Positions 28,830-32,367 of a stretch of 64,000 nucleotides of DNA are shown here, in pieces (within the stretch, counting starts at the first letter, position 1; each line of letters opens with the position of its first letter). A program made the translations under genes and the position numbers. The notes below the pieces were generated by a model that was not told the origin of the DNA, made no database searches, and saw nothing but the letters and a program-made list of their open reading frames with translations. This DNA is from Parerythrobacter lutipelagi. Lineage in GTDB: Bacteria > Pseudomonadota > Alphaproteobacteria > Sphingomonadales > Sphingomonadaceae. The stretch is taken from NCBI RefSeq assembly GCF_005434975.1, contig NZ_SKCJ01000002.1, forward strand, positions 620,001 to 684,000, read 5' to 3'.

Positions 28830-29615
28830 TTAAGCCTTTGCCGCCGAATGCACCGCCTTGGCAAGGCTTGCGGTAAGCTCGCGCAGTTTTGACGGGGCAT
28901 CCGCGCCGTGTTCGCCGACCAGTTCAACCAAAGCCGAACCGACGACCACGCCATCGGCAACCTGCGCGATTTCAGCCGCTTGCTCAGGTGTCCTCACACC
29001 AAATCCCACTGCGACAGGAATATCGGTCGACTGTTTGATGCGGCTGACATTGGCTTCGATCGATCCAATCGCCGCCTGCTGCATGCCGGTGATCCCGGCG
29101 ACTGCGACGTAGTAGAGGAAGCCTTCGCTGCCTTCGATCACTTGCGGCAACCGCGCCGCATCGGTGGTTGGCGTGGCAAGCCGGATCGGTGCGATCCCGG
29201 CAGCGCGCAATTGCGGGCCGAGCGCATCATCCTCCTCGGGCGGAATATCGACGCAGATCACCCCGTCGACACCCGCATCACTGGCGGCGGAGGCAAACCA
29301 CTCCGGCCCGCGCCGGATCATCGGATTGGCATAGCCCATCAGCACCAGCGGTACATCGGGATGGCGATCGCGAAACTTGCGCGCAATGCGCAAGACATCC
29401 GCGGTGGTGGTGCCCGCACCCAGCGAACGAATATTCGCTGCCTGGATCGCAGGGCCATCGGCCATCGGATCGGTGAAGGGCATCCCCAGCTCGATCACAT
29501 CCGCGCCGCCTTCGACCAGCGCGTCGAGATTGGCCGCCGTGTCTCCGTCGCCAGCAGTGACGAAGCAGACGAGAGCAGGGTGGGGTTTGCTGAAGGCGGA
29601 AGAGAGGCGGGTCAT
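28830..29615 (-). CDS. trpA: Tryptophan synthase alpha chain
   Basis: TrpA cleaves indole-3-glycerol phosphate to indole, which is channelled to TrpB. The 261-residue TIM-barrel has both catalytic acids in family contexts (VIELGMPFTDPMADGPAIQAAN) plus VDGVICVDIPPEE and the phosphate loop VGFGVRTPEQA. The ATG at 29615 directly follows the TAG stop of the preceding membrane-protein gene, so in this genome trpA is read as the downstream partner of that gene rather than of trpB, which lies 1.3 kb away. The first ~15 codons (MTRLSSAFSKPHPAL) recur in degenerate form at 30357-30401. Confidence 0.97.
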   Translation of the reverse strand: MTRLSSAFSKPHPALVCFVTAGDGDTAANLDALVEGGADVIELGMPFTDPMADGPAIQAANIRSLGAGTTTADVLRIARKFRDRHPDVPLVLMGYANPMIRRGPEWFASAASDAGVDGVICVDIPPEEDDALGPQLRAAGIAPIRLATPTTDAARLPQVIEGSEGFLYYVAVAGITGMQQAAIGSIEANVSRIKQSTDIPVAVGFGVRTPEQAAEIAQVADGVVVGSALVELVGEHGADAPSKLRELTASLAKAVHSAAKA

Positions 29616-30110
29616 CTAGACTTTCGAAAAACGGGAGTGGGCCGCGTGGGCGAGCTTGCAACAGCAGATGACGATCATAGTCAAGCTTAGGATGTTCAGC
29701 GGGTAGCGGATCAGCCAATGCGGTCCGTAACTACCATGCGGTCCGAAGTAGGATGGGTAAGGTATGAACTCTTCAAATTGGCGGAATGCCGTCAGAACCA
29801 TCAGCGTTGCAGTTAAAGAGCCAAGCACAAAGAAAGCACGATAGGATAGGATTGCTCGCCAAAGTTTTCGCGCGGGCCGCCGCTCTTCGAGCAGATCGCC
29901 AATGTGCCATGGCATAGCGACAAACATGCAGCCGAGGAGAAACACCTCAAGAGAACTCGCAAGAGAAAGCAGGCAAAGCGTGCGATCCTCTGCCAGAACG
30001 CAAAACCGACTTTGGGTGTAACTGGCGACATAGGCCGCAATCGTCAGACCGATCAAGACGCCCATGCTGGTCAGCCAGCGGAGCAGCTTGTGGCGATATT
30101 CGCTGGTCAC
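29616..30110 (-). CDS. Small membrane protein inserted in the trp operon, function unknown
   Basis: The 164-residue protein has four likely transmembrane helices: WLTSMGVLIGLTIAAYVAS, LLSLASSLEVFLLGCMFVAM, AFFVLGSLTATLMVLTAF and a C-terminal LNILSLTMIVICCCKL. Three consecutive cysteines sit in the last helix. No family is recognised. It starts with GTG at 30110, overlapping the stop of a 19-codon ORF (30107-30166) as GTGA, and ends with TAG immediately before the trpA ATG. Base composition is clearly lower in GC than trpA or trpB, pointing to acquired DNA. Position suggests cotranscription with trpA; there is no sign of a role in tryptophan synthesis. Confidence 0.6.
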   Translation of the reverse strand: MTSEYRHKLLRWLTSMGVLIGLTIAAYVASYTQSRFCVLAEDRTLCLLSLASSLEVFLLGCMFVAMPWHIGDLLEERRPARKLWRAILSYRAFFVLGSLTATLMVLTAFRQFEEFIPYPSYFGPHGSYGPHWLIRYPLNILSLTMIVICCCKLAHAAHSRFSKV

Positions 30111-30221: not shown

Positions 30222-30401
30222 TCAGCCGCGCAGGTCATGGGCCGGGCAGGTTGTTGTCATCCTGTCGCCGCGGCCGCACAAATTGGCGACGAAGATCTGG
30301 TCCTGGCGCATTACTTTCGATCGTTTCGTAATGGCGGCGATCGCGTGGCTGGGTTCGAGCGCGGGGTGGGGGTTAGCGAAGGCGGAGGCGAGGCAGGTCA
30401 C
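30222..30401 (-). pseudogene. Chimeric trpA'-'trpB gene remnant
   Basis: A 59-codon ORF starting with GTG at 30401 begins [15 protein letters not shown], close to the trpA start MTRLSSAFSKPHPAL (11 of 15 identical). It then continues without a frame break into [14 protein letters not shown]...ANLCGRGD, matching the trpB C-terminal region [14 protein letters not shown]...ANLCGRGD (26 of 34 identical counted from the shared PAL). The join is at P-A-L, present in both parents. The trpB part stops short of the native C-terminus and runs into unrelated codons. It cannot encode a tryptophan synthase subunit; it is a recombination scar whose divergence implies it is not recent. Confidence 0.8.
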
Positions 30402-30805
30402 AGAGCCCTCTCCCCTTCAGGGGAGAGGGTTGGGAGAGGGGCGCAGGATTGCAAAGTGTCAATAACCTTACCCAGTTGATCCAACACTCCATCCAAATTC
30501 GTCAAAACGTCATGATTTGCGAACCGGATCACCGTGTAGCCTTTGCTTTCAAGAAAGTGTGTGCGCTGAGCGTCATACTGTTGCTGTGAAGAATGTGCAT
30601 CCCCATCAAGTTCAATCACGACCTTGGGTTCGTTGGCGGAGAAATCGACGATATAGCGATGATTGTCGTCCTGGATGACTTTCTGGCGACGAAATTTGAT
30701 GCCCTTGAAGCGCTTCGCCCGAAGTTCAAGCCAGAGGCGCGTTTCCGGCTCTGTCATCTCGCTGCGCATTTTTCTCGCGCGATTTCTCAGCTCAATGTCA
30801 CGCAT
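30398..30805 (-). CDS. DUF559 family endonuclease-like protein
   Basis: The 135-residue protein has the DUF559 layout of a restriction-endonuclease-like fold related to Vsr repair nucleases: an N-terminal helix pair ([15 protein letters not shown]), FRRQ at 38-41, D54 in IVDF and E65-L-D67 in [10 protein letters not shown], then [19 protein letters not shown]. These fit a PD-(D/E)xK-like metal site. The start chosen is the ATG at 30805, directly after a GA-rich palindromic repeat that doubles as its ribosome-binding purine tract. The last ~12 codons ([12 protein letters not shown]) are read through an inverted copy of the same repeat. GC is lower than the trp genes. Its activity and target are unknown. 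Confidence 0.85.
30406..30441. repeat. GA/CT-rich palindromic repeat, copy 1 (3' side of DUF559 gene)
   Basis: CCCTCTCCCC (30406-30415) pairs with GGGGAGAGGG (30420-30429) around loop TTCA, followed by TTGGGAGAGGGG. Read on the minus strand it encodes the C-terminal [10 protein letters not shown] of the DUF559 protein. Confidence 0.9.
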
Positions 30806-30851
30806 CCCCCTCTCCCAACCCTCTCCCCTGAAGGGGAGAGGGTTGGGAGAG
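30806..30851. repeat. GA/CT-rich palindromic repeat, copy 2 (5' side of DUF559 gene), inverted
   Basis: A 19-bp perfect stem (30810-30828 with 30833-30851) around loop TGAA. It is the inverse complement of copy 1 plus one extra half-arm, and abuts the DUF559 start codon, placing GGGAGAGGGGG directly before the ATG. Confidence 0.9.
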
Positions 30852-30937: not shown

Positions 30938-32149
30938 TCAAATCTCCACCCCGAGCTTCTCAGCCACGGTGAAAATATCCTTGTCGCCGCGGCCGCACAG
31001 GTTGGCGAGGATGATCGCATCGTCGGGCATTTCCTTCGCCCGTTTGGTCACCGCCGCGATGGCGTGGCTTGGTTCGAGCGCGGGGATGATGCCTTCGGTC
31101 CGGCACAGTAGCTGGAATGCGTCCAGTGCCTCGTCATCGGTTACCGCGGTGTATTCGACGCGTTCCATGTCCTTGAGCCAGGCGTGCTCGGGGCCGATGC
31201 CGGGGTAGTCCAGCCCTGCGCTGATCGAGTGGCCTTCGGTAATCTGGCCGTCATCGTCCTGCAGCAGATAGGTCTTGTTGCCATGGAGCACGCCGGGGAA
31301 ACCACCGAGCAGGCTGGCGGCGTGTTCGTCTCCATCCAGCCCATGCCCCGCCGCTTCCACGCCGAGCAGCTTTACCTCGGGGTCGTCGAGGAAAGGGTGG
31401 AACAGGCCAAGCGCGTTGGAGCCGCCGCCGATGCAGGCCACTGCCAGGTCCGGCAGGCGGCCAGTGCGGCTCAGCATTTGCGCGCGGGCTTCGATGCCGA
31501 TCACGCTTTGAAAATCGCGGACCATCTCCGGATAGGGATGGGGGCCCGCAGCCGTGCCGATGATGTAGAAAGTGTCGTGGACATTCGCGACCCAGTCACG
31601 CAGCCCTTCGTTCATCGCGTCTTTCAGCGTGCCGCGCCCGCTGGTGACCGGCACGATTTCCGCGCCGAGCAGCTTCATGCGGAAGACATTGGGTTGCTGA
31701 CGGCGGATGTCCTCTGCGCCCATGTAGATGACGCAAGGCAGGCCGAAGCGTGCGCAGACAGTGGCCGTGGCAACCCCGTGCTGGCCCGCGCCGGTTTCCG
31801 CGATGATGCGGGTCTTGCCCATGCGCATGGCGAGCAGGATCTGCCCGATGCAATTGTTGATCTTGTGCGCGCCGGTGTGGTTGAGCTCGTCGCGCTTGAA
31901 CCAGACTTGCGCGCCGCCCAGCGCTTCCGTCAGTCGCTCGGCGAAATAGAGCGGGCTGGGGCGGCCGACATAGTGTTCGAGCAGATCGTCGAACTGCGCC
32001 TTGAACGCCGGATCGGCCTGCGCTGCGCGGTATTCACGCTCCAGATCGAGCACCAGCGGCATCAGCGTTTCGGCCACATAGCGCCCGCCGTAATCGCCGA
32101 AATGGCCGCGCTCGTCTGGTTGTGTGCGGAAGGAATTGGGAGAGTTCAT
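30938..32149 (-). CDS. trpB: Tryptophan synthase beta chain
   Basis: TrpB condenses indole with serine on pyridoxal phosphate. From the ATG at 32149 ([29 protein letters not shown]) the protein has 403 residues. The PLP lysine is in [13 protein letters not shown], the catalytic Glu region is [11 protein letters not shown], and the phosphate loop is [10 protein letters not shown]. The serine-site segment [11 protein letters not shown] and the C-terminal LCGRGDKD are intact here and are the parts copied in the nearby chimeric remnant. Upstream in-frame codons to 32230 are not TrpB-like. In this genome trpB is cut off from trpF by an opposite-strand gene and from trpA by inserted DNA. Confidence 0.98.
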
Positions 32150-32367
32150 AGCGCCAATGCGATTGGCAGAGCTGCACGGCGCTGTCCAGCGGGTAGAGGC
32201 GGTTGCAAAACCTTGCTCGCGGATTAACACAATGTTGCAAGAATGCGACAGATTCGAAAAGTCGGAAGTTTGGCGAAACTGTCAGTTGAAGTTCAGCATT
32301 GTGATCCGATGTAACACATCTGCCGTCCATCCCCCTTACCGGACGGTGAAGTTTGAAAGGAATATTT

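Follow-up and report, generated by a model that had tools for sequence, protein, structure and literature searches.

The DUF559 gene between trpB and trpA of Parerythrobacter lutipelagi is bracketed by two inverted copies of a palindromic repeat, and this bracketing is more general than the single locus: it defines a recurrent unit in relatives. In these units the repeat sequence follows the DUF559 lineage when the genome is held fixed. The findings suggest that a DUF559 nuclease is the basis of a small mobile element with a wide distribution. On balance, the unit described here is probably one instance of a widespread, REP-like palindromic element, the gene-bearing form of which encodes a DUF559 nuclease that would nick its own ends.

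The window, which is the whole stretch of 64,000 nucleotides that was analysed, carries the unit on its minus strand in the order trpB, DUF559 gene (30398-30805), vestigial trpA start with vestigial trpB end, 164-aa open reading frame (ORF) and intact trpA. The individual features are the following.

30938..32230, minus strand: trpB ORF, the upstream host gene (PF00291); the real start may lie downstream of the listed GTG
30807..30851, minus strand: 5'-side repeat: the other arm in inverted orientation (30807-30842), lengthened to a palindrome with 20-nt arms (30810-30851)
30398..30805, minus strand: DUF559 (PF04480) PD-(D/E)XK nuclease-like gene, 135 aa with an ATG start, identified by PF04480, the invariant D54/E65/D67 and the structures 3hrl and 3r3p
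30406..30441, plus strand: 3'-side repeat, with an outer hairpin (30406-30429) and an inner tail (30430-30441), coding for the last codons of the gene
30356..30400, minus strand: vestigial trpA start, adjoining the 3' repeat, 80% identical to 29570-29614
30263..30366, minus strand: vestigial trpB 3' end, joined to the vestigial trpA start, 80% identical to 30982-31085
29616..30110, minus strand: 164-aa ORF that separates the unit, to which it does not belong, from the intact trpA; no Pfam match
28830..29615, minus strand: trpA, the downstream host gene, intact copy (PF00290)

The sequence-only reading had described two inverted palindromes around the gene, one supplying a purine tract before the start codon and the other coding for the last codons, in a unit of lower GC than its surroundings, and each of these points was borne out. 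The arms at 30406-30441 and 30807-30842 are 36 nt long and complementary at 36 of 36 positions. From outside to inside, each consists of the hairpin CCCTCTCCCC-TTCA-GGGGAGAGGG, the dinucleotide TT and the tail GGGAGAGGGG, which faces inward. Folded as single-stranded DNA, the arm forms that same hairpin, and the longer 5'-side palindrome, with 20-nt arms at 30810-30829 and 30832-30851, reaches −24 kcal/mol (z −6.6 to −7.5). The 5'-side tail, GGGAGAGGGGG, abuts the ATG of the DUF559 gene directly and is likely the purine tract for ribosome binding. The 3'-side arm encodes the C-terminal codons, as the translation confirms, and the TGA stop of the gene shares nucleotides with the GTG at the vestigial trpA start. 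GC content is 0.49-0.55 in windows over the DUF559 gene and 0.62-0.67 over most of trpB. The proposed position between trpB and trpA stands, except that a vestigial fusion of trpA and trpB just past the 3' arm (30263-30400, 80% identical to the real copies) and the 164-aa ORF precede the intact trpA. A relative, G045, likewise has a trpA fragment of 82 codons beside its unit and a complete trpA further on. Exact and one-mismatch searches of the window's own genome place the palindrome core at the two window sites and nowhere else, and the second DUF559 gene of this genome (L004) is a weaker match without flanking repeats.

The protein itself was assigned to DUF559 by a Pfam scan of the TTG-extended 165-aa frame of the ORF, in which PF04480 scored 129.4 bits against a cut-off of 20.6 (E 6.4e-38). 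Besides DUF559, the scan returned one restriction-enzyme model below its cut-off, and it gave no Y1 transposase domain, the domain that carries the HUH motif and catalytic tyrosine. The active site proposed from the sequence, D54/E65/D67, is invariant together with H71 in an alignment of 23 sequences. Against the PDB, the family profile matches a solved Neisseria DUF559 protein (3hrl, E 7e-35) and, more weakly, the homing nuclease I-Bth0305I (3r3p, E 3.7e-4). A structural model built from two sequences (mean pLDDT 75.8) has the same two entries as its top Foldseek matches, with E below 0.001 for 3hrl alone and 0.015 for 3r3p. By profile and model, the window protein is a predicted nuclease with the PD-(D/E)XK fold of the Vsr/EDxHD branch, and its nearest fold outside DUF559 appears to be that of I-Bth0305I, which we take to be of the EDxHD class. 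Every pair with at least 70% protein identity and a usable dS gives a dN/dS of 0.04-0.21, and the protein is therefore under purifying selection. No relatives were found in viral contigs, and phage records gave three matches; a defence library gave weak matches only (best E 0.0012), and an Rfam scan of six loci returned nothing at gathering score. YcjD was already handled as a PD-(D/E)XK member in 2005, when a YcjD profile was described as detecting Vsr (PMC1189080).

The generality of the bracketing was established by scoring inverted repeats around DUF559 genes and around control windows. DUF559 is found in 63 of 98 genomes and is missing from the other 35. In a first test, 75 of 92 genes had an inverted-repeat score of at least 16, compared with none of 591 control windows taken from the same loci with a shift of 900-1500 bp; the limit of 16 was chosen after the highest control had been seen at 15.5. 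The test was then extended to an order sample of 30 loci from the family search plus 60 and 20 further regions, comprising the stronger rows minus two at contig ends (G060, G072) and G012:C88, with most rows weaker than about 1e-18 left out. A second sample comprised 66 genes taken from further orders and classes of Pseudomonadota (26 loci and 40 regions, selected among rows not of the window's family as far as E of about 2e-33). Three genes with short flanks were skipped. At the limit of 16, 89 of the 111 DUF559 genes in the order are bracketed, compared with 0 of 809 shifted controls, and elsewhere in Pseudomonadota the counts are 44 of 66 genes and 2 of 235 controls (highest 34.5). Lowering the limit to 14 raises these to 92/111 and 45/66, with 5/809 and 4/235 controls. 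The score test leaves 22 genes in each sample (22/111 and 22/66) without a flanking repeat, and none of the six weakest order genes (E above 1e-26 on a profile built for this analysis) is bracketed. One control window at 32.5 belongs to L207 (G109), the own DUF559 gene of which is unbracketed, with an inverted repeat about 1 kb off.

Among the 138 bracketed genes, the median span from arm to arm is 475 bp, and a single genome (G032) holds up to eight such genes. Ten named records were scored in the same way and five reach 16, including L177 and L178; no flanking repeats were found at L173, L174, L176, L179 and L181. The Neisseria locus L172 is a weak case, scoring 16.0 with 300-bp flanks and below 16 with 250. 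L177, on a Pseudanabaena plasmid, is a cyanobacterial DUF559 gene inside 89-nt inverted paired hairpins of different sequence, and further cyanobacterial repeats may be of this type. In G049 (L026, 1411-1490), the tail of the 5' arm is longer and includes an additional small inverted stretch, which is missing from the 3' arm; the arms of one unit can therefore differ in type.

The nuclease and its repeats are coupled. Sorting the repeats into types by rules proved too crude for this comparison, and pairwise similarity was used instead. Between genomes, repeat similarity correlates with protein identity at r 0.383 (133 genes, with two or more in 26 genomes). When repeats are shuffled among the DUF559 genes within a genome, none of 2000 permutations reaches this value (maximum 0.304). 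With 264 of the 8688 pairs removed because they share neighbours, r is 0.337, and again none of 2000 permutations attains it (maximum 0.273). A nearest-neighbour count gives 119 cases for the coupling, 36 against and 11 ties. The coupling means that the unit holds together; by itself, it is silent on the enzyme that moves it, since another agent moving the whole unit would produce the same pattern.

The arms are also near-identical in picked pairs in which the silent sites of the gene are saturated, as judged by local alignment. This comparison covers 19 hand-picked pairs and a method that favours identity; arms are identical at 42 of 42 positions at a gene dS of 1.77 and at 36 of 36 between the window and L234, at 68% protein identity, while other pairs are lower (for example, 18/22). 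Two DUF559 genes of G268, L214 and L237, have a dS of 1.65 and arms of nearly 100 nt that are identical at 97 of 99 positions, a sign of either strong constraint or gene conversion.

A mechanism compatible with these observations can be proposed. The ends of the unit would be the hairpins with their inward G-rich tails, with the gene between them. The PD-(D/E)XK nuclease would recognise its own hairpin-tail ends, probably when these are single-stranded in replication or extruded, and would nick them on the outer side. The segment, or a gene-less version with both ends, would then be copied by host repair or replication to new intergenic sites, sometimes tight operon junctions, with no target duplication. 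An inserted end could give the next gene a purine-rich ribosome-binding sequence, and insertion between coupled genes may be tolerated because the end offers this sequence. We infer that DUF559 cuts the hairpins and drives their spread.

The closest known systems include REP/RAYT (TnpA-REP, REPtron) and REPINs. As in those systems, a nuclease gene lies between inverted palindromes, the repeat type co-varies with the enzyme, and gene-less inverted pairs are dispersed, in this case in relatives, with none in the window's own genome. The enzymes differ: RAYT is a HUH tyrosine transposase, whereas the window enzyme is of the PD-(D/E)XK type. The window arms, unlike those of RAYT/REP, lack GTAG and CTAC, and either tetranucleotide occurs anywhere in the arm pair in 17 of 138 units. 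GTAG is described as crucial for TnpA-REP of E. coli (PMC8266576). RAYTs are described as single copy (PMC3116915), unlike the eight bracketed genes of G032 and the near-identical duplicates of G046. The DUF559 unit works like RAYT/REP and is not a member, as the HUH transposase and GTAG are both missing. The CGTC REPs (dRS3, RPE and others) are short palindromes, mostly from Alphaproteobacteria, reported without a dedicated transposase (PMC3733652). The window arms differ from these in lacking the CGTC tag and in having a 10-bp C/G-rich stem with an inward tail; CGTC or GACG occurs at any position in 35 of 138 arm pairs. The EDxHD and Vsr-like homing endonucleases share the fold, I-Bth0305I being the closest outside DUF559, but the unit shows no intron or intein, is bounded by palindromes and has copies at unrelated sites in relatives. 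With the repair-type endonucleases Vsr, YcjD and VsrA it shares the PD-(D/E)XK superfamily. The E. coli ycjD gene, which lies between sapF and fabI, differs from the window gene in having no flanking inverted repeat by the same test. Finally, the Sinorhizobium DUF559 gene L178 lies inside 114-nt inverted arms of paired hairpins, which may resemble rhizobial RIME/mosaic elements.

The distribution of dispersed repeats bears on whether DUF559 or another enzyme moves them. Extra copies of three repeat types were counted in 59 family genomes with and without a fetched DUF559 gene of matching type. Genomes with such a gene have 7.6 copies and those without have 2.4 for one type (one-sided p 0.04), 4.0 and 3.6 for the second (p 0.058) and 13.7 and 5.2 for the third (p 0.0007), so that dispersed copies match type-matched DUF559 genes only moderately. 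Six genomes without DUF559 have 0-3 copies of the three types, compared with a mean of 15.2 (p 0.033). The window's repeat type occurs in 27 of 98 genomes, all 27 of them with a DUF559 match. The earlier suggestion that repeats unlinked to any DUF559 gene would speak against the element finds some cases in relatives: 4 of the 35 genomes that lack DUF559 carry type b repeats, several genomes hold many repeat copies without a type-matched gene, and G013 has 93 type-c copies with no type-matched DUF559 among its fetched loci. The window's type and type c are each found in 0 of the 35.

A rival explanation is that another enzyme, such as a RAYT, moves the palindromes and that DUF559 is cargo or a Vsr-like repair nuclease that restrains hairpins or mismatches. 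The moderate type matching fits this explanation, as do the type b repeats in 4 of 35 genomes without DUF559, and cargo always moved with the same ends would show the same coupling. VsrA, a DUF559 protein on which a DNA-damage response of a Caulobacter methyltransferase mutant depends, also fits a repair role: the authors of that work interpret it as a repair endonuclease of the Vsr type (PMC12907096). The bracketing, however, spans many orders and repeat types, which would require one mover to be replaced together with its ends each time, and the window arms carry no GTAG. We consider this explanation unlikely.

Copies in relatives show the unit at new sites. G046 has three copies (L147/L148/L151): two of them, located at unrelated sites, share 97.9% identity over 516 bp, and the third matches one of these at 89.2% over 583 bp. 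In other copy pairs the common part is the gene with its repeats only; some pairs, alike over several kilobases, are plain orthologues. Sphingomonas parapaucimobilis has a copy between sufB and sufC. Inverted pairs that lack the gene, with inward tails and 89-95 bp between the hairpin starts, are present at L039, L042, L044 and L118, and 38 close hairpin pairs were listed irrespective of orientation.

The sequence-only reading had asked for empty-site alleles and for copies that share their ends at the repeats. The most clear-cut case is that of two congeners at the junction of accD and folC, which is empty in G045 and filled in G098, with 88.6% identity over 1143 bp on the accD side and the short folC side compared by eye; the short spacer has diverged. 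At trpB and trpA the same genomes show the reverse, a full unit in G045 and a lone hairpin at the same place in G098, which is either a remnant after loss or a hairpin present beforehand. The shared ends are not exact: the 516-bp block of G046 is about 70 bp longer than the distance spanned by its arms (447 bp), and on one side the similarity to the third copy continues for about another 75 bp. The ends given by the arms are therefore approximate. Target-site duplications do not exceed chance: those of at least 4 bp occur in 11 of 132 cases (shuffled mean 8.0, maximum 16) and those of at least 5 bp in 5 (shuffled 2.1, maximum 9), counts in which uncertain boundaries could hide a duplication. 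Among the compared loci, none was an empty site of the same species with a precise joint.

Several candidate empty sites were rejected. G067/G073 and G077/G093 have flanks 92-97% identical, but G073 has a two-gene stretch between repeats and the latter pair differs by 293 bp of other sequence. Where G067 has its DUF559 unit, G073 (L192) carries these two genes, presumably a ParDE-type toxin-antitoxin pair, between two copies of a paired-hairpin repeat. In the comparison of G001 with G000 and G002, the corresponding gaps, judged by length, hold other sequence. The shorter S. meliloti allele of Sinorhizobium L173 is a truncated DUF559 gene with half a repeat, a decayed copy. Among the matches listed for L178 (40 of 151), there is no clean empty site on other plasmids: three records of Sinorhizobium sp. 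have the gene together with its left flank, a Shinella record matches in the left flank alone, and in most others the common part is the ISRm16 side. For L180 and L177, there were no informative relatives among plasmids. At sufB-sufC, the filled query is longer by 455 bp than an Azospirillum record but by only about 163 bp than Paracoccus records, and these relatives are too distant to give a joint. For E. coli ycjD, tried as a polymorphic test case, 3330 of 5426 genomes have a match over at least 80% of the query, and three fetched examples of the short-coverage alleles (L186-L188), which have an efflux transporter and an outer-membrane gene after sapF, are not clean empty sites.

The same copies weigh on a homing-type element, in which DUF559 would cut an uninterrupted target and recombination through flanking homology would copy the unit, leaving the palindromes a secondary role as insulators, ribosome-binding sequences or terminators. 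I-Bth0305I, the closest structural neighbour outside DUF559, is itself a homing nuclease, and the same trpBA site is filled in six genomes with one DUF559 group. Yet those six copies look vertically inherited, homing leaves copies at unrelated sites, even inside one genome, unexplained, and the repeats are conserved in pairs with saturated silent sites in the gene and exist without the gene. Homing is thus quite improbable as an account of the unit. The repeat-mobilising element analogous to RAYT/REP that the sequence-only reading had proposed fares better in relatives than in the window: the recurrent unit, lineage coupling, copies at new sites, empty/filled pair, lone hairpin and gene-less pairs all speak for it, but the window copy is probably old and has no dispersed core copies.

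Of 30 trpA loci examined (29 with trpB found), 2 carry the unit; in the same genus, trpB and trpA overlap in G002 and are separated by 878 bp of other sequence in G001. The six genomes with the unit at trpBA include G045, G049, G242 and the named metagenome record L171, and their DUF559 proteins form one group (SH-aLRT 91) in a quick tree of 119 rows with few columns, in which 62 of the 116 inner branches are open. The trpBA copies probably go back to a single old insertion that was inherited and often lost. In the trpB-trpA gap of several relatives, other sequences of about 185-1340 bp are found, and the junction therefore seems prone to insertions. In G007 (L079), this gap has about 115 bp in which inverted C/G-rich stretches resemble the decayed remains of a gene-less pair; a simple hairpin pattern search gave no match there.

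The persistence of one trpBA group across six genomes could also mean that the gene is an ordinary resident of the trp operon, kept for a cell function, with repeats that serve expression through ribosome binding and mRNA hairpins. The overlap of its stop with the vestigial trpA start and the palindrome tail before its start codon fit such a domesticated gene. The unit is missing, however, from most relatives' trpBA sites, G001 and G002 included, and the window arms are still 36/36 identical. The earlier reading had named a stable trp-operon member without flanking repeats as a counter-case; all five other trpBA copies keep both repeats. Domestication is very unlikely on this evidence. Chance association of GC-rich palindromes with a horizontally acquired gene, to which the lower GC of the gene might point, is refuted by the controls (89/111 compared with 0/809).

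The favoured reading remains that of a REP-like element with a DUF559 nuclease. In many bacteria, palindromic repeats are a common feature of the DNA between genes, and certain families reportedly lack a dedicated mover (PMC3733652). In the titles and abstract openings of the open-access papers searched, no link of DUF559, PF04480, COG2852 or YcjD to flanking palindromic repeats was found; within that literature, the DUF559 nuclease has not previously been linked to such repeats. A family listed as one of 'unknown function' is bracketed by repeats in most sampled members, with its lineage matching the repeat type. More tentatively, the unit, about 450-475 bp long, could represent a bacterial mobile element of a new class; in it, one DUF559 nuclease would mobilise itself and gene-less palindrome pairs by nicking hairpins, with no transposase, integrase or reverse transcriptase; we hold it possible, with some doubt, that such a class extends from Pseudomonadota into cyanobacteria and is a source of orphan repeat families. 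If DUF559 acts on the repeats, this would give DUF559 a function, orphan repeats a mover and REP-like DNA a second, chemically different route by which to spread.
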